Shown piece by piece: positions 20,525-41,485 of a stretch of 64,000 bases of DNA. Every line of letters starts with the position of its first letter. Positions within the stretch are counted from its first letter, which is position 1. The DNA is from Synechococcus sp. RedBA-s (GTDB lineage: Bacteria; Cyanobacteriota; Cyanobacteriia; PCC-6307; Cyanobiaceae). The DNA lies in NCBI RefSeq assembly GCF_024345495.1, contig NZ_JAGQBF010000008.1, positions 1 through 64,000 on the forward strand, written 5' to 3'. The notes under the pieces were generated by a model. The model made no database searches, was not told where the DNA came from, and worked only from the letters and a program-made list of their open reading frames with translations. A program made the position numbers and the translations under genes.

Positions 20525-21682
20525 TCAGGCGAATCCCTTGCCCGCGTCCTTGGCCACACAGGCCTGGAGCTGGCGGCGCAGGCGCTGGTGGTCGAGATCC
20601 TTGCCGATCAGCACCAGCTGGTTCTTGCGCTCGCCAGTCCAGTCGCTGTCGTCGATGGAGAAGCGCTTGCCGGCCAGGTGAAAGACATGACGGCGTTCGC
20701 TCTCGTTGAACCAGAGGATGCCCTTGGCCCGGAACACCTCCGTGGGCAGCTGATTGTCGAGGAAGTTCTGGAACTTGCGCAGGGCGAAGGGCCCTTCGCT
20801 GGCGAAGGAGAGGGAGGTGAAGCCCTCAATGGCGAGGTGGTCGGCCGGATGCTCGCCGGAACCTGAGGAGTGGTCGTGATCGTGGGAGTGGCTGTGGCTG
20901 TGGCTGTGATCGTGGTCATGGCTGTGGTCGTCGTCGTGGGCGCAGTGGCCATGGTCGTGGTCACAGTCGCCGTGGTCGAGTTCAGGGGTGGGGTCGCCTG
21001 TGGCCACCACCCGATCGGATTCGAACAGACCCACGCTCAGCAGCAGCGGCAGGGCCACATCTCCTTTGACTGAGCGCAGGATGCGAGCGTCGGGTTTGAG
21101 GTTGCGCAGCAGGCTCTCCAGTTGCAGCAGCTGGGGCTCCGGCACCAGATCGCACTTGTTGAGCATCAGGATGTCGCCGTAGATCACCTGCGCCCGGCCC
21201 ACCTCGCTCTCGAAGCTGCTGGCTTCGAAGTTTTCGGCATCAATCAGGGTGATGATCGAATCCAGGCGGGTGCTGTCGCGCAGCTCACTGCCCAGGAAGG
21301 TCATCGCCACCGGCAGGGGGTCAGCCAGGCCCGTGGTTTCCACCACCAAATAATCCACGGGTTCGGGGCGCTCGAGGATCCGCTCCACCGCCTCCAGCAG
21401 CTCGCCGTTGATCGAGCAGCAGATGCAGCCATTGCTGAGCTCCACCATGTCTTCGCTGGTGGCGATGATCAGGTCATTGTCGATGCCGATTTCACCGAAC
21501 TCATTGACCAGTACAGCGGTCTTCAGTCCGCTCTGGTTGCTGAGGATGTGGTTGAGCAAGGTGGTTTTGCCGGCACCGAGGAAGCCCGTGAGGATCGTCA
21601 CCGGCAGACAGGTGGGGCTTGGATCCTCGATCCCCTCCATGGCGGCAGAGGACGCGGGACGAGCAGAGGCAGTGCGAGTCAT
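20525..21682 (-). CDS. COG0523 (CobW/ZNG-like) GTP-binding metallochaperone
   Basis: 385 aa from the ATG at 21682; the frame is open further upstream but without family sequence. Walker A GFLGAGKTT, switch region NEFGEIGIDN, the metal-binding CxCC in NGCICCS, ETTGLADP and NKCD define a COG0523 G3E GTPase. Between residues ~270 and 310 lies a His/Asp-rich loop with many HDH and HSH repeats, typical of Zn-linked members. The C-terminal CobW_C domain includes FRAKGILWFNE. It stands just downstream of the porin on the same strand and belongs by content to the zinc island; no Zur box is visible directly before it. Confidence 0.92.
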   Translation of the reverse strand: MTRTASARPASSAAMEGIEDPSPTCLPVTILTGFLGAGKTTLLNHILSNQSGLKTAVLVNEFGEIGIDNDLIIATSEDMVELSNGCICCSINGELLEAVERILERPEPVDYLVVETTGLADPLPVAMTFLGSELRDSTRLDSIITLIDAENFEASSFESEVGRAQVIYGDILMLNKCDLVPEPQLLQLESLLRNLKPDARILRSVKGDVALPLLLSVGLFESDRVVATGDPTPELDHGDCDHDHGHCAHDDDHSHDHDHSHSHSHSHDHDHSSGSGEHPADHLAIEGFTSLSFASEGPFALRKFQNFLDNQLPTEVFRAKGILWFNESERRHVFHLAGKRFSIDDSDWTGERKNQLVLIGKDLDHQRLRRQLQACVAKDAGKGFA

Positions 21683-21887
21683 CACGGGCAAGAGGGGGCG
21701 GTAGTCGCCTGGTTCGGGCAGTCTGGCGCCAAGGCCGTCGATGGGGCACGGATGCTCGCGATGGTGACCGCCCCGCAACCCTGGCCTCCCCCAGAGCCCT
21801 GTCGGATGAACCAATCAGCCTGTCCCAGCCGATGACAACATCATCACCACGCTGCTTTGCCCGTCAGTCCTGGTCCAGCGGTTGGGC

Positions 21888-23529: not shown

Positions 23530-23544
23530 TGATAATCGTTCTGA
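23530..23544 (-). promoter_or_regulatory. Zur-box-like operator before the porin gene
   Basis: Plus-strand sequence TGATAATCGTTCTGA: a 7-1-7 inverted repeat with a perfect left half (TGATAAT) and an imperfect right half (GTTCTGA). It fits the TGATAAT-N-ATTATCA pattern known for cyanobacterial Zur/Fur proteins. It lies 26 bp upstream of the preferred GTG start of the porin. Fur cannot be excluded from sequence alone; context favours Zur. Confidence 0.6.
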
Positions 23545-25503: not shown

Positions 25504-26559
25504 TCAGTTGATCCGCGACCACGCCTGCGTCAGGGCCTCACCCCCCTGGCGGTCGCAGCGGCCGCCCCAGCCCTCGACGATCGTGCAGGTGTTGCGCACC
25601 AGGGTGGCCATCAGGCTGAGGGGACCCTCGGGGCCCATCGCCAGGCCATCGGCGGCCAGGGGCACAGCTGCGATCGGAACACCGCTGAGTTCGCTGATGC
25701 GCTGGAGGGTTCTGGCTGGAGGGCTCTGCTCGGCGAACAGACGGGGGGTGGAGCCAGCCCGAAGGTTGTCGACCACCTGCCGGAAGGCGTCGGGGCGCAG
25801 GGCCTCACTGGTGCTGGTGGCATCCACCAGGGGCAGCTCATCAAGGCCGTAGGCCAGAGCCAGGCTGGCAAAAGCGCGGTGGCTGCTGGCCAGGGGAGGC
25901 CAGGGCTTGGGGAGGGCATTGAACTGTTTACGGTTCCAGGCATCGAGGTGGTCGAGCTGCTCGGCCATGGCCCTGGAGCGCCGTTGGATGCCCTCGGCGG
26001 CAGGGGGATCGAGGCGGCTGAGCTGGTCTGCGATCACCGCCGCCATGGCTGCCGCCTGGCGCGGGTTGTGCCACACGTGGGGGTCGAAATCGCCGTGGTC
26101 GTGCTCAGCTTCGTGGTTGTGCTCACCTACGGGTTGTCCGCTACCTTCCGGCGTGAGCCTGAGGGGCTGGGGCACGGCTTTCTCGGAAATCGCTACCGCC
26201 CCCGACAGGGACTCCAGGGCGGGGGTGAGGTCGTAGCCACTGATCAACAGCAGCCTGGCGCCGGTGATCTGGGCCTTCTGGTCGGGTCTGAGCCGGAAGT
26301 CGTGGGGATCATCCGCCGGCTGCAGCAGGCAGCCCACCGCCAGCTCGCCGGCGGCCAGTCGCTGGGTCAGATCGCAGAGCACGCCATCGGCTGCCACCAC
26401 CTGGGGCTGGCCGCCGGCGAGCTGGCCCACGGGGGATGAGCTGCCCGGCACTCGGCTGCAGGCCGGAAGCGAGACCCCAAGGCCGCCGAAGAGCAGGAGC
26501 AGCGCCAAGGTGAGCGGTTTGCGCTGATGGTGGAGCCGTGAGCCAGGAAACAGGGCCAC
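25504..26559 (-). CDS. znuA: Zinc ABC transporter, substrate-binding protein ZnuA
   Basis: 351 aa from a GTG at 26559. The signal is lipoprotein-like (LALLLLFGGLGVSLPACS). Zinc-site features: DDPHDFRLRP, a His/Glu-rich loop (EHNHEAEHDHGDFD) before DPHVWHNPRQA, ASSHRAFA and the late Asp/Glu region SEALRPD. The His loop marks a ZnuA rather than a Mn-binding protein. An ATG at 26598 is in frame but overlaps the Zur-like box at 26583-26597, so I reject it as start. Divergent from znuC. Confidence 0.92.
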   Translation of the reverse strand: MALFPGSRLHHQRKPLTLALLLLFGGLGVSLPACSRVPGSSSPVGQLAGGQPQVVAADGVLCDLTQRLAAGELAVGCLLQPADDPHDFRLRPDQKAQITGARLLLISGYDLTPALESLSGAVAISEKAVPQPLRLTPEGSGQPVGEHNHEAEHDHGDFDPHVWHNPRQAAAMAAVIADQLSRLDPPAAEGIQRRSRAMAEQLDHLDAWNRKQFNALPKPWPPLASSHRAFASLALAYGLDELPLVDATSTSEALRPDAFRQVVDNLRAGSTPRLFAEQSPPARTLQRISELSGVPIAAVPLAADGLAMGPEGPLSLMATLVRNTCTIVEGWGGRCDRQGGEALTQAWSRIN

Positions 26560-26582
26560 GGGCCAAAGACAACGATCAAGAA

Positions 26583-26597
26583 CGATAACAGTTCTCA
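26583..26597. promoter_or_regulatory. Zur-box-like operator between znuA and znuC
   Basis: CGATAACAGTTCTCA, a 7-1-7 inverted repeat matching TGATAAT-N-ATTATCA at most positions and sharing its core with the box before the porin. It lies 24 bp upstream of the preferred znuA start and 99 bp upstream of znuC, so one site could control both directions. Confidence 0.62.
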
Positions 26598-26695
26598 TTT
26601 CTGATGGTGTCAGCGACTGCCGTCCTCGGGATCGACGGCTTCTTCAGGTCTTGGTCCTCGGTAGGTTGCGATGAGTTGTCCCTCTGCCGGATCCG

Positions 26696-27391
26696 ATGGC
26701 CCTCGAGGCCCGTCATCTCAGCGTGCGCCGCGGCGAGGGACTGGCCCTGGAGGACATCAGCTTCTGCCTGGAACCCGGCACCCTCACCGCCCTGGTGGGA
26801 CCCAATGGCGCCGGCAAGAGCACCCTGCTCCAGGCGATCGAAGGCCAGATCCCCCTGGTCTCCGGTGAACTCCTGCTCGATGGCGCAGCGCTCACGCCCC
26901 GCCTGGCCCGGCGCCAGCTGGCCCTGATGCCCCAGCGGGGGGAAATTGCCTGGCACTTTCCGATCAGTGTGCGCGAGCTGGTGGGTCTGGGCCGGCTGAT
27001 GGCGGCACGCCCCGGCTGCTGCGCCGTTGAGGCGGCCCTGCAGCGGGTGGGAATTGATGCCCTGGCCTCCCGCCGCCTGGATCAACTCTCCGGCGGCCAG
27101 CAGCAACGGGCCCTGCTGGCCCGCCTGCTGGTGCAGCCCGCCTCGGTGCTGCTGTTGGATGAGCCCTGCGCGGCCATTGATCCCCCCTCCCGCACCCAGT
27201 TGCTGCAGGTGATGGGCCAGCTGCGCGATGCCGGCTTCACCCTGCTGGTGAGCAGCCACGACTGGGGCCATGACCTCGATGCCTACGACCGCGTGCTGGT
27301 GATCGACCGAAAGCTGCTGGCTGATGGCCCTCCGGCCTCAGTGCGTCACTCTCTCGGCGACCTGCGCCTGGGGAACCATTGCTGCGGCTGA
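26696..27391 (+). CDS. znuC: Zinc ABC transporter, ATP-binding protein ZnuC
   Basis: 231 aa ABC ATPase. Walker A GPNGAGKST, Q-loop region MPQRGEI, signature LSGGQQQR, Walker B VLLLDEP, H-loop SSHDWG. The short, Zn/Mn-type ABC ATPase fits with ZnuA and ZnuB. It ends 11 bp from the stop of zur, which lies in the opposite direction; znuB continues on the plus strand behind zur. Confidence 0.93.
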   Translation: MALEARHLSVRRGEGLALEDISFCLEPGTLTALVGPNGAGKSTLLQAIEGQIPLVSGELLLDGAALTPRLARRQLALMPQRGEIAWHFPISVRELVGLGRLMAARPGCCAVEAALQRVGIDALASRRLDQLSGGQQQRALLARLLVQPASVLLLDEPCAAIDPPSRTQLLQVMGQLRDAGFTLLVSSHDWGHDLDAYDRVLVIDRKLLADGPPASVRHSLGDLRLGNHCCG

Positions 27392-27402
27392 TGCTGACCT
27401 GC

Positions 27403-27816
27403 TCAGGCGTCCGACGGGGCGGACTGGCTGCAGCGGGAACAGCGGCCGAAGTATTCCAGAGTGTGGAACAGCAGCTCGAAGCCATGGGCCGTCTCGGGCT
27501 GGGGCTGGATGCCATGCATCGGGCAGTGGTCCAGCGGCAGGGTCAGACCGCAGGACACGCAGGTGAGGTGATGGGTGTCCCGCTCCCGGGGGGCATAGAG
27601 GGCCTCACCGCTGGGCAGGTGGCGGCAGCGGGCCAGACCCAGGCGCTGGAGCTGGCGCAGGTGCCGGTAGACCGTGGCCAGTCCGATCGCCTGGCCGTTG
27701 AGTCGCAGCCGCTGGTGCAGCTCCTGACCGGAGAGTTCCTCGCTGCTGTCGCGCAACATCGCCAGCACACTCACCTGTTTGGCGTTGAGCTGCTGGCTGA
27801 CCGCCTCGGAATCCAT
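27403..27816 (-). CDS. zur: Fur-family regulator, likely zinc sensor Zur
   Basis: 137 aa. DNA-binding half: LSGQELHQRLRLNGQAIGLATVYRHLRQL; the GLATVYRHL helix is the Fur-family recognition element. Metal half: HHLTCVSCG and GRCSRCSQ form the CxxC...CxxC structural zinc site; His residues in DTHHLTC, DHCPMH and HTLEYFG could form the sensory site. The assignment to Zur rather than Fur or PerR rests mainly on its place between znuC and znuB. The start is the ATG at 27816, only 26 bp from the znuB start at 27843. Confidence 0.9.
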   Translation of the reverse strand: MDSEAVSQQLNAKQVSVLAMLRDSSEELSGQELHQRLRLNGQAIGLATVYRHLRQLQRLGLARCRHLPSGEALYAPRERDTHHLTCVSCGLTLPLDHCPMHGIQPQPETAHGFELLFHTLEYFGRCSRCSQSAPSDA

Positions 27817-27842
27817 CGGTGTCTGCCCCTGGGCTGGATCCT

Positions 27843-28685
27843 ATGCAGACCGCCCCAGCCCCCTCGCCCTGCAGCAGCCCGATGACCGTCACCTGGTGGA
27901 TGCTCCCCCTGGCCCTGGCCCTGCTCAGCGGCCTGCTCTGTCCCTTGGCGGGCACCCTGTTGCTGGTGCAGGGACGCCTGTTCCAGGCCAATCTGATCTC
28001 CCATGCGGTGCTGCCCGGACTGGCGGTGGCCCTGGCGCTGGGCCTCGATCCAGGCCTGGGCGGGGTGGTGAGCGGAGTGGCCGGCGCCCTGCTGGCGGAG
28101 CGCTTCAGCCGTCCCGCCAGCTCTGGCGGCCGTGGCGATGAGGCGGTGCTGAACACGGTGCTGGCCGGATTTCTGGGCCTTGGAGTGCTGCTGATTCCTC
28201 TGTTGCGCATCCGGGTGAACCTTGAAGCGGTGCTCTTCGGTGATCTGCTCGCGGCCGGACTGCCGGATCTGCTGCGCACCGGTCTGTCACTGCTGGTGGT
28301 GCTAGGGCTACTCAGCTTCCGCTACCGCCAGCTGGTGTTTCTGGGCGTGGATCCCCTCGGGGCGGCCAGCTCCGGGCTGGCGGTGGGGCGCCTGCGCCTG
28401 CTGCTCACCTTCGTGACTGCCCTGACGGTGGTGAGTGCCATGACGGCCGTCGGGGTGGTGCTGGTGATCGCCCTGATGGGGGCACCGGCGCTGCTGGCCC
28501 TGGAGGGAGCGATCAGCCTGCGGCAGGCCCTTTGGCGGGCCTCCCTGATCGGGGCCCTGCTGGCCGGCTGCGGCTTTCTGCTGGCGATCCAACCGGCCAT
28601 CAACCTACCTCCCGGGCCCCTGATCGGCGTGCTGAGCCTGCTGCTGCTGCCCCTGGTGCTGCGACGGCGAGATTCAGCCGGGTGA
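27843..28685 (+). CDS. znuB: Zinc ABC transporter, membrane protein ZnuB
   Basis: 280 aa, ABC-3 family permease with about eight helices. Typical blocks are LLCPLAGTLLLVQGRLFQA, ISHAVLPGLAVALALG, GDLLAAGLPDL, YRQLVFLGVDP and ALMGAPALLALEGA. A GTG at 27819 would start 2 bp from zur; ATG at 27843 or the ATG at 27882 (MTVTWWML) are better. The last 12 bp overlap the convergent gene. Forms the ZnuABC importer with znuA and znuC, importing Zn2+ across the plasma membrane. Confidence 0.91.
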   Translation: MQTAPAPSPCSSPMTVTWWMLPLALALLSGLLCPLAGTLLLVQGRLFQANLISHAVLPGLAVALALGLDPGLGGVVSGVAGALLAERFSRPASSGGRGDEAVLNTVLAGFLGLGVLLIPLLRIRVNLEAVLFGDLLAAGLPDLLRTGLSLLVVLGLLSFRYRQLVFLGVDPLGAASSGLAVGRLRLLLTFVTALTVVSAMTAVGVVLVIALMGAPALLALEGAISLRQALWRASLIGALLAGCGFLLAIQPAINLPPGPLIGVLSLLLLPLVLRRRDSAG

Positions 28686-30056
28686 GAGCCAGCTCACCTG
28701 CCGCACCGGCCCCTTGAGCAGGGTCAGCTCCAGGCTGGTGGCATCGATCAGGGCCGCCTGGGGTTCCGCTCGGGAGGTGTCCGGCGCCGGTCCTGACGCT
28801 TGCAACGGCCGTAGGGCCAGCAACAAGCGGTCGGTGGTGGGGTCGTAGCTCAGGCCGGTGCCCGGCTCCAGTTCCCAGCCCTCCAGCCGTTGCCGACGTT
28901 CGCCGCCCCCGCGGCTGAGGGCCAGCAGGGTCAGCTCGGGCCGCTCAATTCCATCCAGCAGCAGGGCCCAGACCCGCTCGCCTCCCCTGGAGCAGGCACT
29001 GGCCAGCAGGGCTTCCGAACCCAGCCAGAGGGTTCTGGGCGCCTGGGCCGGCTCCACCAGCTCCAGGGAGCGGCGGAAGTCGGGCCAGTGGCGACTGAGC
29101 AGGGCCCGGCCCGCCACCGGGCAGAAACTGCTCAGATCCCGGCTGCCAGGCAGCAGCTGGCGGCGCTCCGGAAGTGGCGGCAAGCTCCTCAGCGCCAGAC
29201 CATCGGCCTCGGGCACCACCAGGGCTCCCCCCTGGGGCACCAGCGCAATGGGTCCGCGCGGATCCAGCTCCAGACGGCGACGGCTGCCGTTGCGCTCCCA
29301 CAGCACCACCTCCTCCTGGGGGAGCTCGCCGCCCGGGGCCTGAGCGGCCGCCTGCACCAGCAGATCGCCGTTGATGTTGCTGCTCAGATTGGCGAACACG
29401 AAGCTCTCGGAACTGAAGGGCTCCAGCTCCCCGACCTGGGCTGGAGCCAGTTCGCTGGAGCGTTGGGCCAGGTGCCGGCGCTTCAGCTCCAGCTTCCAGA
29501 CCCGGTGGTCCCCCTGCAGGTCGCGGCTGACCACGCCAAGCCCTGAGCCATCACCGAGGGCCACGGTCTGGGGGATGGCGGGCCATATGGGGGTGAGGGG
29601 CACCCAGGCCCCCTCGGCTGTGCGTAGTCGCACCTGTTCGCCTCCGGGCACGGGCACCACGGCCAGCAGGTCGGGGCGGGGATCCCAGAACCAGCGCTGG
29701 GGGGGCAGGGCCAGCCCCCGCTGGTCGCGACCCTCCAGCCGCAACTGCAGGGGCTCTTCGATGCGGGAGCCAACGGCGGGCAGCAGCAGCAGCGGATTGC
29801 CCTCCCCCTGAATGCTGAAGGGCAGAGAGGGTTGCAACTGGCTGTCCGAGGCCACGCTGGACGGCTGCATCGGCCGGCTGAAGCGCAGGCTCAGGGCTGC
29901 TGGTCCGGAGCTGGCGCTGGCCTGGCGCAACTCCAGCAGGCGTGGTGGCCGGTGCCAGAGCACTTGCTGCTGCAGCAGGGCCACGGCCGCAGCGGCGATC
30001 AGCATCAGCCTCAGCCTCTTCTGCCGGCGCCACCAGCGCAGGGGAGACCTGCTCAT
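28674..30056 (-). CDS. Membrane-anchored protein of unknown function
   Basis: 460 aa. One N-terminal helix (LRLMLIAAAAVALLQQQVLW) and a large extracytoplasmic part, probably beta-rich, with propeller-like repeats such as LLAVVPVPGGEQVRL, VVSRDLQGDHRVWKLEL and GLSYDPTTDRLLLAL. The early part (AALSLRFSRPMQPSSV) resembles an Ig-like bacterial domain. No known function. Its ATG at 30056 overlaps the stop of the TIGR03943 gene by 4 bp, so it is the last gene of a four-gene operon. In-frame sequence upstream of 30056 is a shadow of that gene. Confidence 0.68.
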   Translation of the reverse strand: MSRSPLRWWRRQKRLRLMLIAAAAVALLQQQVLWHRPPRLLELRQASASSGPAALSLRFSRPMQPSSVASDSQLQPSLPFSIQGEGNPLLLLPAVGSRIEEPLQLRLEGRDQRGLALPPQRWFWDPRPDLLAVVPVPGGEQVRLRTAEGAWVPLTPIWPAIPQTVALGDGSGLGVVSRDLQGDHRVWKLELKRRHLAQRSSELAPAQVGELEPFSSESFVFANLSSNINGDLLVQAAAQAPGGELPQEEVVLWERNGSRRRLELDPRGPIALVPQGGALVVPEADGLALRSLPPLPERRQLLPGSRDLSSFCPVAGRALLSRHWPDFRRSLELVEPAQAPRTLWLGSEALLASACSRGGERVWALLLDGIERPELTLLALSRGGGERRQRLEGWELEPGTGLSYDPTTDRLLLALRPLQASGPAPDTSRAEPQAALIDATSLELTLLKGPVRQVSWLSPG

Positions 30057-30748
30057 GGCTCCAGCGGCTGGCGGGGCCTGGGGATCGGCTGCACAAGCCT
30101 GGCTTCCACCACGCTGCGCTGGCGCTCGCCCATCGTTTCGCTCACCATCACCCCCTCTAGGCGCAGCCACTGGTCGGCCCGCGGTTGCGGCTGGTCGGCG
30201 GGCCAGCGCACCGGCAGCCCCACCGGCACGGCATCCACCAGGCAGCAGCGCACCAACAGGCGGGCCAGGTGCGGCTCCTCGCCGGGCATGGGCAGAACGA
30301 AACCGCTGATGCGCACCGCATCTCCTGCATAGAGCCGGGGGTCCGGTTCGCTGCGCAGCAAGCGCACCCAGTCGGTGAGGCTGCGCTGGGCGGGGGGGAG
30401 CACGAAGCTCAGGCCCGGCTCCTCCAGCAGGTTGGCCTGGCGGTTGGCGGCCAGATCGGCGAAGGACGGCCTGGGGGGCAGGGCCAGCACCGCCAGGGCC
30501 GCGCCGATGCTCAGCAGCGACGTCCAGCGGCCACTGACGCGGCTGCCATCGCGCCAGTGGCCGCTGATCTCCACTCCGGCCAGCAGCAGCAGCAGGATCC
30601 CGCTGCCCCACACCAGCGGATGGAACACGGCCCGCAGCAGCAGATCAAGCCGTCCGCTCAGGGCGCTCTGCAGCAGTGCAACGCCCCACAGCGCCAGGGC
30701 CAGAGCCTTGAGCCGGCCAGGGCTCAGAGCAGAAGTAAATTGACCCAT
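30053..30748 (-). CDS. TIGR03943-family protein, partner of the permease
   Basis: 231 aa. Two N-terminal membrane segments (ALALALWGVALLQSALSG and LVWGSGILLLLLAGVEI) precede a soluble domain with VRISGFVLPMP, LARLLVRCCLVDAVPVG and WLRLEGVM. This architecture is typical of the TIGR03943 family, which is usually encoded next to a DUF318-type permease and often near metal-related genes. Its start overlaps the permease gene by 25 bp. It may form a complex with the permease; the transported substrate is not established. Confidence 0.83.
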   Translation of the reverse strand: MGQFTSALSPGRLKALALALWGVALLQSALSGRLDLLLRAVFHPLVWGSGILLLLLAGVEISGHWRDGSRVSGRWTSLLSIGAALAVLALPPRPSFADLAANRQANLLEEPGLSFVLPPAQRSLTDWVRLLRSEPDPRLYAGDAVRISGFVLPMPGEEPHLARLLVRCCLVDAVPVGLPVRWPADQPQPRADQWLRLEGVMVSETMGERQRSVVEARLVQPIPRPRQPLEP

Positions 30749-31719
30749 TGACCGATCAGCAACACCACCAGGGACGCCGCCCCTGCCGTGAGCAGGATGG
30801 CGCGGGGCCGCAGCAGGATGCCGAATAGCCCCACCAGCTTGAGGTCCATCACCGGCCCCAGCAGCAGGAAGGCCAGCACCGCCCCAGGGGTGACTTGGGC
30901 GGCAAAACCCAGGGCCAGAAAGGCATCCACGCTGGAGCACACCGACACCACCAGGCTGAGCAGCATCAGGCTCAGGATCGAGAGGGTGGGGGTGCCGCCC
31001 ACGGCGATCAGCCACTGGCGCGGCACCACGGTCTGTACCAGCGCGGCGATCGCGCAACCCATCACCAGCAGCAGGGCCAGCTCCAGAAACTCGCTGCCGC
31101 CGTGGGAGAGCACCTGGCCCAGGGGGGGACGGCGGCTGGATCCGCCCAGGGCGGGGACGGCAGCGCCGGCCGGCACTCCGATCAGGCCACTGCGCCGCTC
31201 CAGCAGCGTCACCTCCCCCAGGGGCTGGCTCAACCGCCGCTCCTCCAGCAGGGCCGGCTGCAGCAGTTCGTGCTCGGGCAGAAGCCGCAGCAGCGTGGCC
31301 AGGCACACCGCGATCAGCAGAGCCCCCAGGGGCCGTGCCGCCAGCAGCCAGGGTTGGTCGGGAAAGGCCGCCCAGGTGCTGGCCAGCACGATCGGATTGA
31401 GCACCGGCGCCGCGAACAGAAAGCCCAGGGCAGTGGCGATCGGGGCTCCCTTCACCAGCAGATGCCGGGCCATGGGCACGTTGCCGCACTCACAGGCGGG
31501 TAAGGCAAAGCCCAGGGCCGCGCCGCTCAGGGGTCCCAGCAGCGGGTGGGCAGGCAGGTCCCGCACCCATTTCCCCCCGGGGCTGATCCAGCGGGCGAGG
31601 GTCGAGAGGGCCACCCCGATCAGGAGAAAGGGCATCGCCTCCACCAGCAGGGCCTGAAACAGGGCCCAGGTGGTGGCCAGCCGCTCCACCGCAATCACGG
31701 CCGCCCCTGGGCGAACCAC
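30724..31719 (-). CDS. DUF318-type permease (YraQ/ArsP-like)
   Basis: 331 aa, about eight to ten helices in two similar halves. Half one carries PACECGNVPMARHLLVKG, a Cys-x-Cys motif usual in the family; half two carries VVSVCSSVDAFLALGFA and GPVMDLK. Members export metalloids or are linked to metal stress; the presence of zinc genes nearby suggests a divalent-metal role here. The GTG start at 31719 overlaps the end of the QueD paralogue by 25 bp, so translation of the two is probably coupled. Confidence 0.86.
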   Translation of the reverse strand: MVRPGAAVIAVERLATTWALFQALLVEAMPFLLIGVALSTLARWISPGGKWVRDLPAHPLLGPLSGAALGFALPACECGNVPMARHLLVKGAPIATALGFLFAAPVLNPIVLASTWAAFPDQPWLLAARPLGALLIAVCLATLLRLLPEHELLQPALLEERRLSQPLGEVTLLERRSGLIGVPAGAAVPALGGSSRRPPLGQVLSHGGSEFLELALLLVMGCAIAALVQTVVPRQWLIAVGGTPTLSILSLMLLSLVVSVCSSVDAFLALGFAAQVTPGAVLAFLLLGPVMDLKLVGLFGILLRPRAILLTAGAASLVVLLIGQWVNLLLL

Positions 31720-32066
31720 TCGAGGGAGGCCTCGTAGCTGGCGGCATTGCGCTTGTTCTCGCGCGCCTCCACTTTCCAGCAGCCGCTGAGGCCGCCGTCG
31801 CGGTCGCGCAGCAGCCCACTGGCCCAGCCCCAGACCAGCTCAGCGCTGCTCTCCATGCCCACATTGGTCATCACACGCAGGTCGAGGGCTCCTTGATCAT
31901 GCAAGTTGCGCCATTGCTCCAGCAGTGGGTCATCGACGTTGACCAGGAAGGTGTGATCAAACTGCCCGGCCAGTTGGCCCTCCAGCGTCTTGAGGCCCGA
32001 GAAATCCACCACGAAGCCGTTGGCATCCAGCTCTCTGGCCCGGAACCAGCAGGTGAACAGGGCCAT
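31695..32066 (-). CDS. QueD/PTPS paralogue lacking the zinc-binding segment
   Basis: 123 aa, closely related to the intact queD at 40976-41443. It keeps [51 protein letters not shown] and the C-terminal Glu region, but the N-terminus goes directly from MALFTC to WFRAREL. The 32 residues that carry the catalytic Cys and all three zinc His in the intact copy are missing. The loss equals exactly one unit between two 9-bp repeats (GCAGGTGAA). The frame is intact. It cannot act as a normal zinc-dependent QueD. It is the first gene of the operon with the permease, TIGR03943 and the 460-aa protein. Confidence 0.85.
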   Translation of the reverse strand: MALFTCWFRARELDANGFVVDFSGLKTLEGQLAGQFDHTFLVNVDDPLLEQWRNLHDQGALDLRVMTNVGMESSAELVWGWASGLLRDRDGGLSGCWKVEARENKRNAASYEASLEWFAQGRP

Positions 32067-32251
32067 CGCCGGGATGGGAGAGGATCGCAGCAGCCGGACG
32101 ACACAAGGTCTAAACCGGATAAGAAAGGCCACTCTGAGGGGCAGCGCCACGACCAAGGCGCAATCAATTCCCACATCTGGCTCGTTCCTCTCCGTTTCAT
32201 CCAGCTGCTGGAACTGCTAACGAGGTGATCGCTGAGTTGGCGATGACTGGC

Positions 32252-32968
32252 TCAGCGGGAGGGCAGAGCCTTGAGGGCTTCGCCAGATCCCATCACAACA
32301 AGCAATTCGCCCTCTTTGAGGACATGGGACGCGGGGGGGTTCACAGTCAGCTGGTTCTCAGGGCCGACAGCCAGGACAGTGACGTTGTGGTTCTTGCGCA
32401 AGTTCAGTTCACGCAGAGACTGGTCCACGAAGGCCTTTGGTACACGAATCTCCTCGATGCTGTTGCGATCATCGAGCCGCAGCCGTTCCAGCATGTTCGG
32501 ACGCACGAGCTCCAGGCCAAGCCGGTGGCCCTGCATTTTTGATGGATAGACGACCCGATCGGCTCCGACGCGCTGGAGCATTTTCATGTGAATATCACTG
32601 GTTGCACGGGAAATCACCTGCTTCACCTTCGTCCCATCACTGTGTTTCGCGATCAACGTGGCAGTGATGCTCGCCTCGATAGGTTCGCTGATCGCTACCA
32701 CGACAGTGTCAACTTCGAGAGCCCCTGCTTCGCGGAGTGCTTCCTCATCGGTGCAGTCCACCACCCTGGCTTCGATTGAGGGATCGATCAGGCGCATCGC
32801 ATCAATAGCCCGCTGACTGGCATCGATGGCCAACACCGTTGCACCGTTATGAATAAGTTCGTCGCAGACCGCTGATCCAAACCGGCCAATACCGATTACG
32901 GCAAAGGTTCCAAACGACGTCGATCCATCGGGGGGGGCCCATTGCCACCACGCATTGCTTGATGCCAT
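32252..32968 (-). CDS. ktrA: K+ uptake regulatory subunit, KtrA/TrkA type
   Basis: 238 aa. The RCK_N domain begins FGTFAVIGIGRFGSAVCDEL (Rossmann GxGxxG) with an acidic residue at the end of strand two (AIDAS), then AISEPIEASI. The RCK_C domain follows from about 160 (IRVPKAFVDQSLRELNL, EGELLVVMGSGEALKAL). It binds nucleotides in the cytosol and gates KtrB. It lies 11 bp downstream of the TrkH-family gene on the same strand. Confidence 0.91.
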   Translation of the reverse strand: MASSNAWWQWAPPDGSTSFGTFAVIGIGRFGSAVCDELIHNGATVLAIDASQRAIDAMRLIDPSIEARVVDCTDEEALREAGALEVDTVVVAISEPIEASITATLIAKHSDGTKVKQVISRATSDIHMKMLQRVGADRVVYPSKMQGHRLGLELVRPNMLERLRLDDRNSIEEIRVPKAFVDQSLRELNLRKNHNVTVLAVGPENQLTVNPPASHVLKEGELLVVMGSGEALKALPSR

Positions 32969-32979
32969 CGGTTCACACC

Positions 32980-34404
32980 TCAGATGAAGACCTCTTCGCG
33001 GGGGTAGCCGACCCTGGACGGGGGTCTGCTGCCGTAGAGGGCTGAGAGCAACAGCATGATGCCCAGCCGTCCGACAAACATCCCCACCATCAGCACCAAC
33101 TGACCCCAGCGGTTAAGGTTAGCGGTCACCCCGACATCAAGTCCGACGGTGCCGAAGGCCGACATACAGGTGAACAGCTTCTCAAGGAAGCTGTAGGCCT
33201 GGGCAGTAGGTTCTCCTCCCGCCGTTGGTCCAAGACCGAGCACGAGCGTCATCAAGATCACGAACAGGCCGGAGGCCAGGGCCACCCCCACGGCCTTGAG
33301 CACGATATCTCCGGGGATCTGATGTTTGCGGATGATCACCTCCTTGCGTCCTTCAAGGGTTGAGCGGGTGGCACCCATCAGCACCGCGAAGGTGGTGGTC
33401 TTGATGCCACCGCCTGTGCCCCCAGGGCTGGCACCGATGAACATCAGCACGATCATCAGCAAAAGGCCAGCATCGGAGAGCGTCTCGATTGAGAGCGGCA
33501 CCGTGTTGAAGCCGGCTGTGCGGGTGGTGATCGACTGAAAAATGGTGACCTGCAACTTTTCCCAGAGGGGGAGGGTCGACATGACCCCATCGGGCGCGAA
33601 CTGTTCGGTGAACAGCAGCCCCAAGGCCCCGAGCCCGATCAGCAGCAGGGTGCTGCGCAGCACCAAGCGCGTGTGCAGACTCAGGCGACGGATCCGTTGG
33701 AGCCGGAAGCGTTTCTCCCAGAGGTCGTTGGTGACGCGCCAACCGATGCCGCCGGTGACGATCAGGCTGCCGATCACGCCATTGACGACCGGATTGGCCT
33801 TGTAGCCCACCAGGTTGTCGCTCCAGAGTCCGAAGCCAGCGTTGTTGTAGGCGCTGATGCAATGAAACATCGCCGCCCAAAGCCTCTCGCCATGGTTGCT
33901 GATGTCGGTGAACCCGAAGCTGTAGAGAATCACGGTGCCGACCCCCATCACACAGCCGGCGGTGATCAGGATCTGATGGAAGGTGGGGCCGATGCCTCCG
34001 ACGCCGAACTCATCGAGAGCCCGGCCCTTGTCGAGGCGTAGACGCAGGCCGGAGCGACCCTGCACGAAACCCTGAAGAAAGGTGGTGATCGCCATCAGGC
34101 CGAGCCCGCCGGTGATGATCAGCCCGGCCAGGGTCACCTGTCCAAAGAACGTGAGGTCCTTGCCCACGTCAATGATCGAAAGACCCGTCACCGTGATCGC
34201 CGAGGTCACGGTGAACAAGGCCTGCCAGAGCCCCACTTCATCGCTGGAGCAGAGCGGCGAGGCCAGCAGAAGGGTTCCAGAGGCAATCACCAAAGCCCCG
34301 GTCACCACCGTGAACTGCGGCACCGTGAGCCGATGGCGCCAGCGCATCAAGCCTTTCCCCAGACGATCCAGCGACTGAGAGGTCATCGAACCAGGGAATC
34401 TCAT
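32980..34404 (-). CDS. ktrB: TrkH-family K+ transporter membrane subunit (KtrB type)
   Basis: 474 aa, TrkH/KtrB fold of four M1-P-M2 repeats. Pore-loop glycines can be seen in TVTGLSIIDV, AYNNAGFGLW, TRTAGFNTVP and FGTVGLDVG. Also GASPGGTGGGIKTTT, the gating-loop region typical of KtrB. Usually Na+-driven K+ uptake, important for osmotic adaptation. The start may instead be the ATG at 34386. Operon: antiporter, ktrB, ktrA. Confidence 0.92.
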   Translation of the reverse strand: MRFPGSMTSQSLDRLGKGLMRWRHRLTVPQFTVVTGALVIASGTLLLASPLCSSDEVGLWQALFTVTSAITVTGLSIIDVGKDLTFFGQVTLAGLIITGGLGLMAITTFLQGFVQGRSGLRLRLDKGRALDEFGVGGIGPTFHQILITAGCVMGVGTVILYSFGFTDISNHGERLWAAMFHCISAYNNAGFGLWSDNLVGYKANPVVNGVIGSLIVTGGIGWRVTNDLWEKRFRLQRIRRLSLHTRLVLRSTLLLIGLGALGLLFTEQFAPDGVMSTLPLWEKLQVTIFQSITTRTAGFNTVPLSIETLSDAGLLLMIVLMFIGASPGGTGGGIKTTTFAVLMGATRSTLEGRKEVIIRKHQIPGDIVLKAVGVALASGLFVILMTLVLGLGPTAGGEPTAQAYSFLEKLFTCMSAFGTVGLDVGVTANLNRWGQLVLMVGMFVGRLGIMLLLSALYGSRPPSRVGYPREEVFI

Positions 34405-34446
34405 CTGTGGGCGGCCAACCTACCGGAGTGATCCATCCTTGGAGCC

Positions 34447-35613
34447 TCAGATTGGCGGCAGAATCCCTTTGAATCGAGTGCGTCTTGCCAGGCGGCGCTC
34501 CAGCAGCAGCAGTCCCAGCACCGTGGTCACGGTCACCATGATCACCAGGGCGGAGAACTGGGTCGGGTTGATCACCCCGGCGCTTAGAGCCGTGGTGGCG
34601 AACACCAGGCCGGGCAAGCCCCGGGGGATCAGCCCGAACACCACCAGCCAGCGGTCGACCCCGGCGGCGCGATCCGCCGCCGTGACCCCCAGGCCGCAGA
34701 GGAGCTTGCTGAGCACCGCCATCACCACCAGGGCGGCTGCCAGGCTCCAGGCCGCCGGCTCCAGCAGGGTGTCCGCCGAAATCCGCATCCCGACGCTGAT
34801 GAAGAACAGGGGCAGGAACACATCCGAGAGCACCGAGAGTGTGCGGGAGACGTCCGCCTCGGGCGGACTGAGGCGAGCCAGCAGGATCCCACCCCAGAGG
34901 GCCCCCAGAAGGGAGGTGAGGCCACTGGCTTCCCCCAGCCACGAGGAGGCGATCAGCACGATCAGAATCGCCAGGGGCGTGGTGGGCCGTTCGGGCCGGT
35001 GACGCGCCCACAGCCCAACGGCCAGAGAGATCAGGGCCGCCAGGGCGAAACCCAGGAGCGGTCCGGGTCCTGCCAGGCCCGAATGTCCCATCGGCAGGCC
35101 AGCACTGGCCATCGCCACCGAGAGAAGCGCGATCGCCGGCAGGTCGTCGAGTACCGAGACGCCCACCAGGAGGCGGCCGGAGGGGGTCTGGAGAGCATTC
35201 CCCAGTGCCAGCACCCGCAGGGTCACCCCCGTTCCGGTGGCGCTGAGCACCGCCAGGCAGAGCAGGGTTTCAGGCGTGGCCATGCCGAACAACTGGTGCA
35301 GGGGCCAGTAGGCCAGCAGGGGGGCCAGGAAACTGATCCCCACCGTTCGCAGAATGCTGGCGCCGCGTGAGGTCAGCAGATCGCCCCTGACCTCCAGACC
35401 CACCTGAAAGAAAAGGGTGAGCACCCCCAGCTCGGTGATGCCGCTGAGCGGTTTGATGGCGTCAAACGGCAACACTGTGTTGCCCAGGATGAACCCCACC
35501 AGCAGCTCCAGCACGATGGTGGGCACGGCCCACGCCACCAGCCGACCAGCTGACACGCGGGCGATCAACACCCCCGTGAGCAGGATCAGCAGGGTGGTGA
35601 GCAGCGTCGGCAT
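34447..35613 (-). CDS. Cation:proton antiporter (CPA2/NhaP-KefB type)
   Basis: 388 aa, about twelve helices. ELGVLTLFFQVGLEV is the conserved signature of monovalent cation:proton antiporters; SATGTGVTLRVLA and VGVSVLDDLPAIALL (Asp-Asp of the ion site) follow; LPLFFISVGMRI is in the second half. No C-terminal RCK domain is fused. It lies 42 bp upstream of ktrB, in the same direction, suggesting joint control of K+/Na+/H+ balance. Divergent from the P-type ATPase with a 44 bp gap. Confidence 0.9.
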   Translation of the reverse strand: MPTLLTTLLILLTGVLIARVSAGRLVAWAVPTIVLELLVGFILGNTVLPFDAIKPLSGITELGVLTLFFQVGLEVRGDLLTSRGASILRTVGISFLAPLLAYWPLHQLFGMATPETLLCLAVLSATGTGVTLRVLALGNALQTPSGRLLVGVSVLDDLPAIALLSVAMASAGLPMGHSGLAGPGPLLGFALAALISLAVGLWARHRPERPTTPLAILIVLIASSWLGEASGLTSLLGALWGGILLARLSPPEADVSRTLSVLSDVFLPLFFISVGMRISADTLLEPAAWSLAAALVVMAVLSKLLCGLGVTAADRAAGVDRWLVVFGLIPRGLPGLVFATTALSAGVINPTQFSALVIMVTVTTVLGLLLLERRLARRTRFKGILPPI

Positions 35614-35657
35614 TGTGGTGTGGACCTTAAGGTGACCTGGATTTCAGCCTGTCACCG

Positions 35658-38420
35658 GTGAGCCGCCCTGTTTCGCCTGCCTGGCACAGCCTCGCTCCCC
35701 AGGATTGCCTCCGAGAACTTCAGGCCAGCTCCGAGGGCCTGAGCACCGCCCAGACCGCTGAGCGGCTGGCCCGGCTGGGGCCCAACAAGCTGGAGCTGGC
35801 CCCCGGCCGCAGCAACCTGCGGATCCTCTGGGACCAGCTCAGCAACGTGATGCTGATCATGCTGCTGGCCGTGGCCGCCGTGTCGGCCGCGATCGCCTTC
35901 CAGGCGCAGAAGTTCCCGAAGGACGCGATCGCCATTGTGCTGATTGTGGGCCTCAACGCGCTGCTGGGCTACATCCAGGAAAGCCGTGCCCAGACCGCCC
36001 TGCTGGCCCTGCGCGAGATGGCCCAGCCCCTGGTCACCGTGCGACGTGACGGCCATTGGGATCGGATCTCCAGCGAACAACTGGTGCCCGGCGATCTGAT
36101 CCGCCTGGAGGCAGGCGATCGGGTGCCCGCTGATGCCCGATTGCTGGAAGTGGCCGAACTGGGCCTGCGCGAGGCGGCCCTCACCGGCGAGGCCGAGGCC
36201 GTGTTCAAGAAGGCGGATCTTGTGCTGGAGGCCTCCACGCCGGTGCTGGAGCGGCAGAACTGCCTGTTCCAGGGCACCGAAGTGGTGCGGGGGCGGGGCA
36301 CGGCGGTGGTGACCGCCACCGGCATGGGCACGGAACTGGGCCAGATCGCCGAGCTGATCAACACCGCCGGGGGTGAAACCACCCCGCTGCAGGAACGGCT
36401 CGATGGACTCGCCAACGTTCTTGTGGTTTCAGCGCTGGTGCTGGTGGCTTTGGTGGTGCTGGGCGGTTGGCTGCTGGGCCAGCCGTTGCTGGGCCTGCTG
36501 GAGGTGGCGCTGAGCATGGCCGTGGCGATCGTGCCGGAGGGCCTGCCCGCCGTGATCACCGTCACCCTGGCGATCGGCACCCAGCGCATGGTGCAGCGGG
36601 CCGCCCTGATCCGCCGCCTGCCGGCGGTGGAGGCCCTCGGCTCGGTCACGGTGATCTGTACCGACAAGACCGGCACCCTCACCTTGAACCGCCAGGTGGT
36701 GGAGGAGCTGCGCTGCGGCAGCCAGTCGATCGCCGTCAGCGGCCAGGGCTACGACCCCCACGGTTCCTTCACCCCGGCCGAGCTCGCACCTCCTCAGGGA
36801 GCCGTGGCGGGCATTACCGCTGGAGCCAGGGATCTGCTGCTCTCAGCCGGTTTGCTCTGCAGTGACGCCGAACTCAAGAAGGCCGAGGACGGCAGCTGGG
36901 ATGTGCTGGGCGATCCCACCGAAGGCGCCCTGGTGGTGGCCGCCGGCAAGGCCAAGCTGGATGGCTTCGCCCTCCGCAGCCAGTACGAACGCAAGGCCGA
37001 AATTCCCTTCAGCTCGGAGCGCCAGCTGATGGCGGTGTGGGTGCAAGACAGCGACGGCACCCTCCAAACGCCTCTCGGGTCGGTGGCGAGCGGCTCCCAC
37101 ACCCTGCTGATCACCAAGGGGGCACCGGAGGTGATCCTCGGCAGCTGCGACCGCTGGATCGGCGGCGCCGGTGTTGAGGGGCTCAGCGATTCCCAGCGGC
37201 AGTGGTGGGTGGAGCAGGGGCGGAGCCTCGCCGCCTCCGGCCTGCGGGTGCTCGCCTTCGCCTGCGCCCCCCATCACACCAGCCCCGAACAGTCGCTGGA
37301 TCACCAGGTGCTGCTCGGACTGATGGCCCAGCTCGATCCGGCCCGGCCGGAAGTGGCCGTGGCCGTGGCCCGCTGCCGGGAAGCCGGCATCCGGCCGGTG
37401 ATGATCACCGGCGACCATCCGCTCACCGCCCGGGCCATCGGCCAGAACATCGGGCTAGTGGACGGTGACGCGGAGGTGGTGCTGGGCCGCGAGCTGGAGC
37501 AGTTCAACGATGTCCGGCTTCAGGAAGTAGTCAACCGCTGCAGCGTCTATGCCCGGGTGCCGCCCGAGCAGAAGCTGAGGATCGTGAAGGCCCTGCAGGC
37601 CAACGGCCAGGTGGTGGCGATGACCGGCGACGGTGTCAACGACGCCCCGGCCCTGAAGCAGGCCCACATCGGCGTGGCGATGGGCATCACCGGCACCGAG
37701 GTGAGCAAGGAGGCCTCCGACATGGTGCTGCTCGACGACAACTTCGCCACGATCGTCAACGCGGTGGAGGAGGGGCGGCTCGTGTATGCCAACATTCGCC
37801 GCTTCGTGAAGTACATCCTCGGCAGCAACGTCGGTGAGCTGATCACGATCGCCTCAGCGCCGCTGCTCGGCCTGGTGGGCTCTCCCCTCTCGCCGCTCCA
37901 GATCCTCTGGATGAATCTGGTGACCGATGGTGTGCCCGCCCTGGCCCTGGCCCTGGAGCCCGGCGAGGAAGGTCTGATGCAACGGCCTCCAGCTGAACCC
38001 GGGGAGTCGATCTTCGCCAGAGGGATCGGTAGTTACATTCTGCGAATCGGGGTGGTGTTTGCGATCCTCACGATCGTGCTGATGGTCTACGCCTTCCGGG
38101 CCGGGGCTCCATGGCAGACGATGGTGTTCACCACCCTCTGCCTGGCCCAGATGGGCCATGCCCTGGCCGCCCGCAGTGATCTGCCGCTCGTGCAGGTGAA
38201 TCCGTTCTCCAACCTCTGGCTGATCGGGGCTGTGGTGCTTACCTCCGCCCTGCAGATGGCCCTGCTCTACGTGCCCGTGTTATCGAACTTCTTCGAGACG
38301 ACGCCCCTTAGCCTCCCGGATCTAGCCATCTGCGTAGGGTTCAGCTTCCTGTTCTTCCTCTACCTGGAGCTGGAGAAGGTCTGGCGGCTGTGGCGCCGCC
38401 GCGCCCATGCCGATGCCTGA
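35658..38420 (+). CDS. P2-type cation-transporting ATPase (Ca2+ ATPase-like)
   Basis: 920 aa. Actuator motif LTGEAEAV, M4 motif [11 protein letters not shown], phosphorylation site CTDKTGTLT, nucleotide-binding KGAPEVIL, hinge MITGDHP and [18 protein letters not shown]5-M6 have LGSNVGELI and [16 protein letters not shown]. The pattern is the Pma1/PacL group of bacterial P2 ATPases, which pump Ca2+ and sometimes Na+ or Mn2+. Starts at GTG 35658; no ATG is nearby. Its 3' end overlaps the dedA start by 14 bp. Confidence 0.92.
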
Positions 38421-39105
38421 GCTGCTGGTCGGCTCCCTTGTCCAGGCGGGACGGTTGCAGCAGTGGGCCGAAGCGTTTCTCACGCTGATCGGTGACACGG
38501 TCGAGACCAATCCCGCTCAGGGCTATCTGTTGATCGGCCTGGCGCTGCTCCTCGAGAACGTGATACCGCCGATTCCCTCAGAGCTGGTGATGCCCCTGAG
38601 CGGCTTTCTGATTCAGCAGGGCAAGCTCCAGTTCATTCCCGTGGTGGGCGCCGCCTTGACCGGCACCGTGCTCGGGGCCTGGTTCTGGTACGGGATTGGT
38701 CGCCTGGTGAATGAGCAACGACTGGAACATCTGATCGGTCGCCATGGCCGTTGCCTCGGCCTCAAGCCTGCTGATCTGGCTCTCAGCAGGCGCTGGTTTT
38801 CTCGCCATGGAGCGGCGGTGGTGTTCTGGGGTCGACTGGTTCCTGGTATCAGGCCATTCGTTTCGATACCTGCCGGCATTGAACTGATGCCTCAACGGTC
38901 GTTTCTGTTCTGGACCAGTGCAGGAAGCCTGCTCTGGATCCTGGCACTCGTCAGTGCTGGCTTCCTGCTGGGGGACAACTACCGCCAGATCCTGGTCTGG
39001 ATTGCGCCCTTCACCAGCCTCATGATCCGCCTTCTGCTCGTGCTCATCGCTGTGGTAACGATCTGGATCGGGGCCCGTGCCCTTCAGCGAAACTCCAGAC
39101 CGTGA
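38407..39105 (+). CDS. DedA-family membrane protein
   Basis: 232 aa. Family motifs: ALLLENVIPPIPSELVMPLSGFL (Glu in the first membrane block), LGAWFWYGIGRL, and FWGRLVPGIRPFVSIPAG (conserved Arg in the second block). DedA proteins act as lipid scramblases or transporters for undecaprenyl-phosphate and phosphatidylethanolamine and matter for membrane energetics. Overlaps the ATPase gene by 14 bp; a second ATG lies 6 bp on. Confidence 0.88.
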   Translation: MPMPELLVGSLVQAGRLQQWAEAFLTLIGDTVETNPAQGYLLIGLALLLENVIPPIPSELVMPLSGFLIQQGKLQFIPVVGAALTGTVLGAWFWYGIGRLVNEQRLEHLIGRHGRCLGLKPADLALSRRWFSRHGAAVVFWGRLVPGIRPFVSIPAGIELMPQRSFLFWTSAGSLLWILALVSAGFLLGDNYRQILVWIAPFTSLMIRLLLVLIAVVTIWIGARALQRNSRP

Positions 39106-39149
39106 AGGCTCCCCGGAGGCAGGCCTATTCAGAGGAGATCTGGATCGAA

Positions 39150-39419
39150 TCACTCAGCTCCTGACTGTTCCTTCACCGGCCGACCGTCGCGCTCGCTGAA
39201 GCCGCTTGGGTCGACCAGGATTGGAATTCCGGCTAGCACCAAAGCGATGAGAAGCATGGTAAAGACGCTGAGCCAGAAGCCCAGTCCCCGATGATTCATT
39301 ATTCCAAGCACAGGGTGACCACACCCCACGCAGATCATCGAGCCCTTCCCCAGACTCCCTTTGGTGATCATGCGGCAGCCACAACGTTGACAGGGCACGA
39401 CAGATGGAGGCACCAACAC
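39150..39419 (-). CDS. Small zinc-ribbon membrane protein
   Basis: 89 aa from a GTG. A zinc-ribbon (CQRCGCRM ... ICVGCG) at residues 10-34 is followed by one transmembrane helix (WLSVFTMLLIALVLAGIPIL) and an acidic tail. No family recognised. Probably anchored with the ribbon on the cytosolic side. The frame is clean, and the two CxxC pairs spaced as in zinc ribbons make it a credible gene. Confidence 0.6.
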   Translation of the reverse strand: MLVPPSVVPCQRCGCRMITKGSLGKGSMICVGCGHPVLGIMNHRGLGFWLSVFTMLLIALVLAGIPILVDPSGFSERDGRPVKEQSGAE

Positions 39420-39571
39420 CCCTCAGACCATTGCAGCTCAGCCGTGACATCTGCTGATTCAACCGCAACCAAAAAATGGAAAATCGATGCCCTGCCTTCA
39501 TCGATCAACAATTCATTGCTGGCTCGCTGGGTCGTTGCATCTATCATTGTGATCCATTAGCCCTGGCTTGA

Positions 39572-40867
39572 TCACTTCATCTCAAGAGGCATTACCAGAA
39601 TCTTGTCAACGCGCTTTCCATCCATATCCATCACCTCAAAGCGATATCCTTGCCAGTTGAAATGGTCGGATGCCTTGGGGATGCGCTCCAGTGCATGAAT
39701 CACGAATCCAGCCATGGTGTGATACTGCCGCTGTTCATCTGAGCCGAGCAGTTTGCTGCCGATTCGATCATCAAAATCATTGATGTCGAGGCTGCCGTCC
39801 ACCAGCCAACTGCCATCATCGCGGATCACGAATGAAGGCTCCTCCTCGTCTTCCAACGCTGGCAGGTCCCCGACGATGCCCTCCATCAGATCGTTGAGCG
39901 TCACGAGACCCTCCACCCCACCGAACTCATCAGTGACCAGGGCGATGTGAATGCCGGTGCGTTTGAACTGCTCTAACACCGTGAGGGACCGGATCGATTC
40001 CGCCACATAGAGCGGCGGCTGGCAAAGCGCTTCCAGATCAATGGGGTCGCTGCCCAGTTGGGCGGTGAGCAGGCTTCGCACTCGAACGATACCGAGGCAG
40101 TCGTCCAGACTGCCTCGGCCTACCGGGAAACGGGAGTGGTTCGACTCCTTAACCTCAGTGAGATTCCACTCCAGGGATGACTCCAGATCCAGCCAACGGA
40201 TCTCAGTGCGCGGCGTCATCATTGTCTTGATCGTGCGATCTCCCAGTCGCAACACCCGTTGCACCATGTCATGCTCACTTTCCTCGAAGACACCGGAATC
40301 GGCACCCTGGCGGATCAGGGCTTTGATTTCCTCCTCGGTGACGTCGGGTTCAGCGGAGGGGTCCACGTTCAGGAGTCTCAGCAGAGCATCAGTGGAGATG
40401 CCGAGCAGGTGCACTGCCGGGGCACTCATTCTGGAGAGTGTGCGCATGGCGGGGGCGATGCGGCAGGCGATCCGCTCCGGATTGGCCAAGGCAATCCGCT
40501 TGGGCACCAACTCGCCGATCACCAGGGAGAGGTAGGTGATCAGGGCCACCACCAGCGTGACACTTAATCCTTCGCTATAGGGCTGCAGCGCCTTGATGCC
40601 ATCGAAGATGGGCCTGAGATGCTGCGCCACCGTGGACCCGGCAACGGCACCGCTGAGGATGCCGATCAGGGTGATGCCGATCTGCACCGTCGAGAGGAAA
40701 TCGTTAGGCGATTCCGCCAGGCGAAGGGCCGCTTGAGCAGGGCGGTTCCCTTTCTCGGCCAACTGCTGCAGCCGCAGCTTCCGGGCTGAAACTACGGCGA
40801 TTTCAGAGCCTGAGAAGATCCCGTTGGCGATGATCAGCAACAGGATGAATAGGATCTCGAACGCCAA
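39572..40867 (-). CDS. CNNM/CorC-type hemolysin family protein
   Basis: 431 aa. DUF21 membrane domain ([37 protein letters not shown] with the conserved Glu-Leu-Val-Pro-Lys), two CBS domains ([36 protein letters not shown]) and a C-terminal CorC/HlyC domain ([30 protein letters not shown]). Family members move or sense Mg2+ or Co2+. The start appears to be a TTG at 40867. Confidence 0.9.
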
Positions 40868-40975
40868 GCAGTGATGAAGACCCAGTCGAGGTCAATAATC
40901 TACTGGTTGGATCAGGCCTCATCCTGGTTGTTGCGGTGGCAGCCCAGTTGGGGCCAGCCAGCCGCTCCACACCCT

Positions 40976-41443
40976 TCACTGCCGGTCCTGGGCGAACCAC
41001 TCGGGGGTGGCCTCATAGCAGGCGGCATTGCGCTCGTTCTCACGCGCCTCCACCTTCCAGCAGCAGCTGCGGCCGTCGTCGCGGGCGCGCAGGAGCTCGT
41101 TGGCCCAGCCCCAGACCAGCTCCGCGCTGCTCTCCATCCCCACGTTGGCCATCACGCGCAGGTCGAGGGCTCCTTGATCATGCAACGAGCGCCACTGCTC
41201 CAGCAGCGGGTCATCGGCATTCACCAGGAAGGTGTGATCAAACTGCCCGGCCAGTTGGGCCTCCAGCGTCTTGAGGCCCGAGAAATCCACCACGAAACCA
41301 TTGGCATCCAGCTCTCTGGCCCGGAACCAGCAGGTGAAGCTGCGGCTGTAGCCGTGCACGAAGCGGCAGTGGCCCCGGTGCCGCCACTGGCGGTGACAGC
41401 AGGGGTAACCGCTGAACTGTTTCGAGCAGGTGAACAGGACCAT
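40976..41443 (-). CDS. queD: 6-carboxytetrahydropterin synthase QueD (PTPS family)
   Basis: 155 aa. The catalytic Cys and zinc ligands are in [15 protein letters not shown] and [35 protein letters not shown] and the late Glu (WKVEARENE) complete the site. Makes CPH4 from dihydroneopterin triphosphate for queuosine or related pterin pathways. This is the intact member of the duplicated pair in the window; the partner lies at 31695-32066. Starts at ATG 41443; 42 bp from the divergent hisIE. Confidence 0.9.
41330..41434. repeat. 9-bp direct repeats flanking the QueD zinc segment
   Basis: GCAGGTGAA occurs at 41330-41338 and 41426-41434, exactly 96 bp apart. In the shorter paralogue there is only one copy (32049-32057), with matching flanks on both sides. 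This is the footprint of a slipped-strand or recombination deletion of 32 codons. Confidence 0.9.
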
Positions 41444-41485
41444 CGCCGGGATGGGAGAGGATCGCAGCAGCCGGACTCCTCTTCC

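Follow-up and report, generated by a model that had tools for sequence, protein, structure and literature searches.

A short, still open queD-like gene that is very probably a young pseudogene bordering a rearranged block of genes in Synechococcus sp. RedBA-s

The short queD-like gene of Synechococcus sp. RedBA-s is very probably a young, still open pseudogene, a decaying duplicate that borders a rearranged block of genes. It lies in the window, by which we mean the whole stretch of 64,000 nucleotides analysed here, part of a 61-contig draft assembly. Purifying selection has been lost on the branch of the short copy, and its counterparts in three related genomes, Synechococcus 1G10, Cruz-7E5 and J7-Johnson, are disrupted.

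Structure of the two queD-like copies

Nucleotide alignment of both genes and their flanks confirms the second, closely similar queD copy of the preliminary description, at 31695-32066 beside 40976-41443, both on the minus strand. It also bears out the exact extent of the loss: a single 96-bp gap, lying between two 9-bp repeats, separates the short open reading frame (123 amino acids) from the intact gene (155 amino acids). The following features are present at the two copies:

30053-30760, minus strand: TIGR03943 family putative permease subunit (NCBIfam)
30724-31698, minus strand: ArsP_1/DUF318-type permease (Pfam); its GTG start overlaps the stop of the short queD; subject to purifying selection
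31695-32066, minus strand: short queD-like copy, very probably a decaying duplicate; 123 codons, without codons 4-35 of the intact copy (alignment, omega about 1, remnants in relatives)
32049-32057, minus strand: single TTCACCTGC remaining at the deletion point (alignment of both copies)
32067-32099, minus strand: duplicated queD leader, 33 bp (GTCCGGCTGCTGCGATCCTCTCCCATCCCGGCG)
40976-41443, minus strand: intact QueD-like PTPS gene, 155 amino acids (Pfam PTPS, 82 bits); strongly conserved
41330-41338, minus strand: TTCACCTGC repeat, second in gene direction (alignment of both copies)
41426-41434, minus strand: TTCACCTGC repeat, first in gene direction (alignment of both copies)
41444-41476, minus strand: leader of the intact queD, the same 33 bp as at 32067-32099

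In the intact gene, TTCACCTGC repeats (GCAGGTGAA on the plus strand) bound the missing segment at 41330 and, 96 bp away, at 41426; a single copy is left at 32049. The repeat is exact in 8 of the 9 intact queD copies of the genus, and the 96-bp deletion is accounted for by it. Residues 4-35 are gone from the short copy, as had been described for its zinc-site segment; they include the nearly invariant H17, C26 and H30, and with these three absent the short copy does not qualify as a QueD/PTPS enzyme. D69, H70 and the C-terminal half are retained, and the frame is open. Such a precise, in-frame loss of the zinc site looks designed, and is explained by the 9-bp repeat together with redundancy after duplication.

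Outside the gap, the two copies differ at 33 of 354 nucleotides. Their homology extends 33 bp 5' of the ATG and about 35 bp beyond the stop codon, into the permease start, so the duplicated segment is larger than the queD gene. The TGA of the short reading frame overlaps the GTG start of the permease (GTGA), an overlap shared by most intact queD-permease pairs. Promoter scans found none at either queD copy.

The queD-permease junction in related genomes

We compared nine genomes of the genus, RedBA-s and eight others. Each contains one intact queD beside hisIE. In five of them, Cyanobium sp. CZS48M, WH 5701, CS-1329, BSA11S and G004, the genes hisIE, queD, permease and TIGR03943 follow one another without a gap. 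The same order is found in a same-family outgroup and in several more distant named relatives, and on this ground we take queD abutting the permease to be the ancestral arrangement. The short gene had been presented as heading a permease operon; the overlap stands, while the position would be a leftover of the ancestral order and not a new association. The cyanobacterial hisIE-queD-permease-TIGR03943 cluster was also found on CALPNT020000052.1, a record labelled as a Bifidobacterium breve MAG, which is for that reason probably mislabelled or contaminated.

In the remaining four genomes, RedBA-s, 1G10, Cruz-7E5 and J7-Johnson, an ion-transport block of 7-9 kb splits queD from the permease. In the window it is arranged as follows:

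32100-32251: about 150 bp from the ktrA stop to the duplicated leader; not found here in relatives, and a joint unlike that of 1G10, Cruz-7E5 and J7-Johnson
32252-40940: block between the queD copies with ktrA, trkG, CPA2 antiporter, Ca-type P-ATPase, dedA, a small ORF and a corC-like gene; present in 4 of the 9 genus genomes
40941-40975, minus strand: decayed piece of the permease start, 3' of the intact queD stop (alignment); also in the three other block-bearing genomes

The distance between queD and the permease is 7-8 kb in 1G10 and Cruz-7E5, and the pair is split over two contigs in J7-Johnson. The relatives' blocks contain ktrA, trkG, the Ca-type P-ATPase, dedA, usually the small ORF, and the corC-like gene. 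Orthologues of the block genes are absent from the five block-free genomes, where identity reaches 69% for the best ktrA-like protein and 32-33% for the best corC-like ones; we read these proteins as paralogues. The CPA2-type cation/proton antiporter gene of the window (34447-35613) was matched in neither the 1G10 nor the Cruz-7E5 block, a comparison in which the corresponding part of the J7-Johnson block is missing from its contigs.

The permease-side queD of 1G10, Cruz-7E5 and J7-Johnson is a remnant in which about 100 bases can be recognised, with indels or frameshifts and stops. A 3' deletion in the remnant joins a queD-internal GTGATGG to the GTGATGG at the permease start, a short direct repeat. 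In all three strains this deletion joins what is left of queD, in frame, to the N-terminus of the permease. Examination of relatives for a short QueD 5' of the permease, as proposed in the preliminary description, gave two results: stop-bearing remnants occur in these three genomes, and a truncated form in none of 19 named relatives, all 19 of which have the N-terminal segment.

The joint 3' of the intact queD, with its decayed permease start, is common to all four block-bearing genomes. The left joint is not: the window keeps the leader and start codon after the unplaced sequence of about 150 bp, whose matches are limited to the duplicated leader and to weak, short stretches in other places. 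Because this joint differs from that of the three relatives, their remnants may stem from another event than the short copy.

The window's arrangement could in principle stem from an assembly that wrongly joined mixed strains, some carrying the block and some lacking it. The genome is a draft of 61 contigs, and the 3' part of the short copy groups with a block-free sister. However, three other genomes, all of named strains and none a metagenome bin, carry a queD remnant at this position; the 9-bp repeat is too short to mislead a normal assembly, and the private substitutions of the short copy are absent from every other genome. We regard an artefact of this kind as extremely unlikely.

In the gene tree the short copy groups with Cyanobium sp. 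CZS48M and CS-1329; the intact copy falls among all the others (support 99). The differences between the short and the intact copy are unevenly spread, with 6 in the first 161 bases and 30 in the last 238 (Fisher p = 0.002, an optimistic value as the split point was picked after viewing the sites). The simplest reading of this mosaic is that the short copy would be the resident one, the 3' part of the intact copy being of other origin and the 5' part duplicated or converted.

We infer that the block entered by recombination, duplicating queD at its edges; such a route could, for example, combine a homologous crossover with an illegitimate one. The permease-side queD would then have become redundant, lost its zinc-site segment by deletion between the 9-bp direct repeats, and drifted, with no functional product expected. 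Loss of the block in some lineages, via recombination between the queD copies, is equally possible. The Cruz-7E5 type is not supported by dS as a recent donor of the block: against that strain, block dS is 0.14-0.46, similar to that of most flanking genes (0.36-0.68). The locus forms a small natural series, from an intact pair through a separated pair with an open short copy to a separated pair with remnants. It is suited to the study of gene-block entry and decay at the queD-permease junction in Cyanobium/Synechococcus.

Selection on the short copy

On three trees, we fitted a codon model in which the short branch had its own omega. The short-branch omega was 0.74, 0.83 and 0.64, above a background of 0.06-0.08 (p = 0.0008, 0.0004 and 0.0003) and not different from 1 (p = 0.78, 0.85 and 0.60). 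Only about 15 private substitutions of the short copy enter these estimates, so the error on omega is wide and leaves room for weak constraint. Five intact control branches gave omega values of 0.03-0.11, each significantly below 1. The permease remains conserved, with dN/dS of 0.001/0.095 against Cyanobium sp. CZS48M.

Of the 89 positions at which all nine intact copies agree, the short copy alters 5 (A76V, N115S, R125L, C142S and P147L). Leave-one-out counts for the intact copies themselves are 0-2 in eight of the nine; the distant BSA11S alters 6 of 95.

Young decay and a zinc-free derivative kept for a new role had been set side by side in the preliminary description, with stops in close relatives named as a sign of plain decay. 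The dN/dS comparison proposed there places the short branch at neutrality, above a background of about 0.07, and stop-bearing remnants occupy the same place in relatives. The decay arm is upheld by both observations, and the derivative loses ground for want of purifying selection on the short branch (omega 0.64-0.83).

Against decay, it can be argued that the frame is open, has a start codon and ends in a stop that overlaps the permease start, as one would also expect had the product or coupled translation been kept. The short reading frame could act as a translation-coupling leader, in which ribosomes ending it restart at the overlapping permease GTG, so that length and frame matter and the amino acids do not. 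The GTGA overlap, which the short copy shares with most intact pairs, agrees with this, as does the open frame; an omega near 1 fits selection on the frame alone. However, such a leader is destroyed in 1G10, Cruz-7E5 and J7-Johnson while the permease stays conserved. Openness needs no selection either: in simulation, 15 random substitutions leave no stop with a probability of about 0.54, and the open frame is for that reason weak evidence for use. We consider a coupling leader unlikely. In this reading an enzyme gene would have turned into a leader ORF, the function of its protein being lost and its 123-codon frame held only through selection on the frame and on the position of the stop.

Family membership, zinc and known systems

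Both proteins belong to the PTPS superfamily by the Pfam gathering score of PF01242 (22.4 bits), with 82.2 bits for the intact and 45.7 bits for the short protein, the latter matching from profile position 33 on. Against the NCBIfam QueD profile (6-carboxytetrahydropterin synthase, TIGR03367), they reach 39.9 and 25.2 bits, both under the cut-off of 89.25 bits. As even the intact protein falls far below it, 'QueD' should rather be named 'QueD-like PTPS protein', judging by these profiles. QueD and PTPS enzymes usually have an HGH motif. The intact QueD-like family reads HGY in the alignment, with a conserved 22-residue segment. The third position of the motif is presumably a zinc ligand; with a tyrosine there, the metal site and substrate of the family may differ from those of QueD. 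Elsewhere in the genome, contig 35 (70-1056) encodes a 328-amino-acid protein with two PTPS domains in tandem, which at 112.1 bits exceeds the QueD cut-off and is more likely to be the true QueD of Synechococcus sp. RedBA-s.

Near the queD locus are a zinc ABC transporter (25504-28685) and, at 20525-21814, a COG0523 gene. We scanned the window with a cyanobacterial-type palindrome, which may not be that of the clade, and with a motif from the two best sites; neither gave a Zur box at queD or the permease. The best two Zur-like boxes are at 26584 (znuA/znuC) and 23531 (5' of a porin gene), and by upstream box neither the short copy nor the permease would belong to a Zur regulon. Two exact matches to GATAAYNGTTCT, at 23531-23542, 5' of an outer-membrane porin-like gene, and at 26584-26595, between znuA and znuC, are candidate Zur boxes of this clade.

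The preliminary description was correct in its general statement that Zur regulons contain QueD paralogues, which occur in some of them and keep their zinc residues (PMC2770081). For the short copy, with no Zur-like box at queD or the permease, and with those paralogues retaining their zinc residues, Zur control of the locus is unsupported. This bears on a further possibility, in which the short protein, derived from QueD and free of zinc, would have taken on a new role, for example as a decoy subunit or within a zinc-sparing response. Zinc-importer genes and the COG0523 gene within 12 kb would suit such a role, as would the Zur-regulated paralogues themselves. Yet the protein is under no purifying selection, the conserved residues N115, R125, C142 and P147 are altered, no Zur-like box lies near the short copy, the known paralogues differ in keeping the zinc site, and no truncated form exists among the 19 named relatives. 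We therefore judge this role very unlikely. The likeness to Zur-regulated QueD paralogues is that of a second PTPS-family gene near zinc transport genes; here it has no near Zur-like box, its zinc site is deleted and its protein is not under selection.

For the pseudogene reading, two recombination systems offer comparisons. Homology-facilitated illegitimate recombination, as described in PMC3240628, would yield one homologous and one non-homologous joint. Just such a pair is suggested by the mosaic of the short and intact copies together with the unrelated sequence of 150 bp at the left joint, although a series of recombination steps could lead to a like result. PMC3784515 describes merodiploids that arise through natural transformation, with inserted segments flanked by duplicate gene fragments. 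At the queD locus the copies are diverged and partly deleted, and we infer the mechanism of entry; the likeness lies in a block set between direct copies of a resident gene, one of which is redundant.
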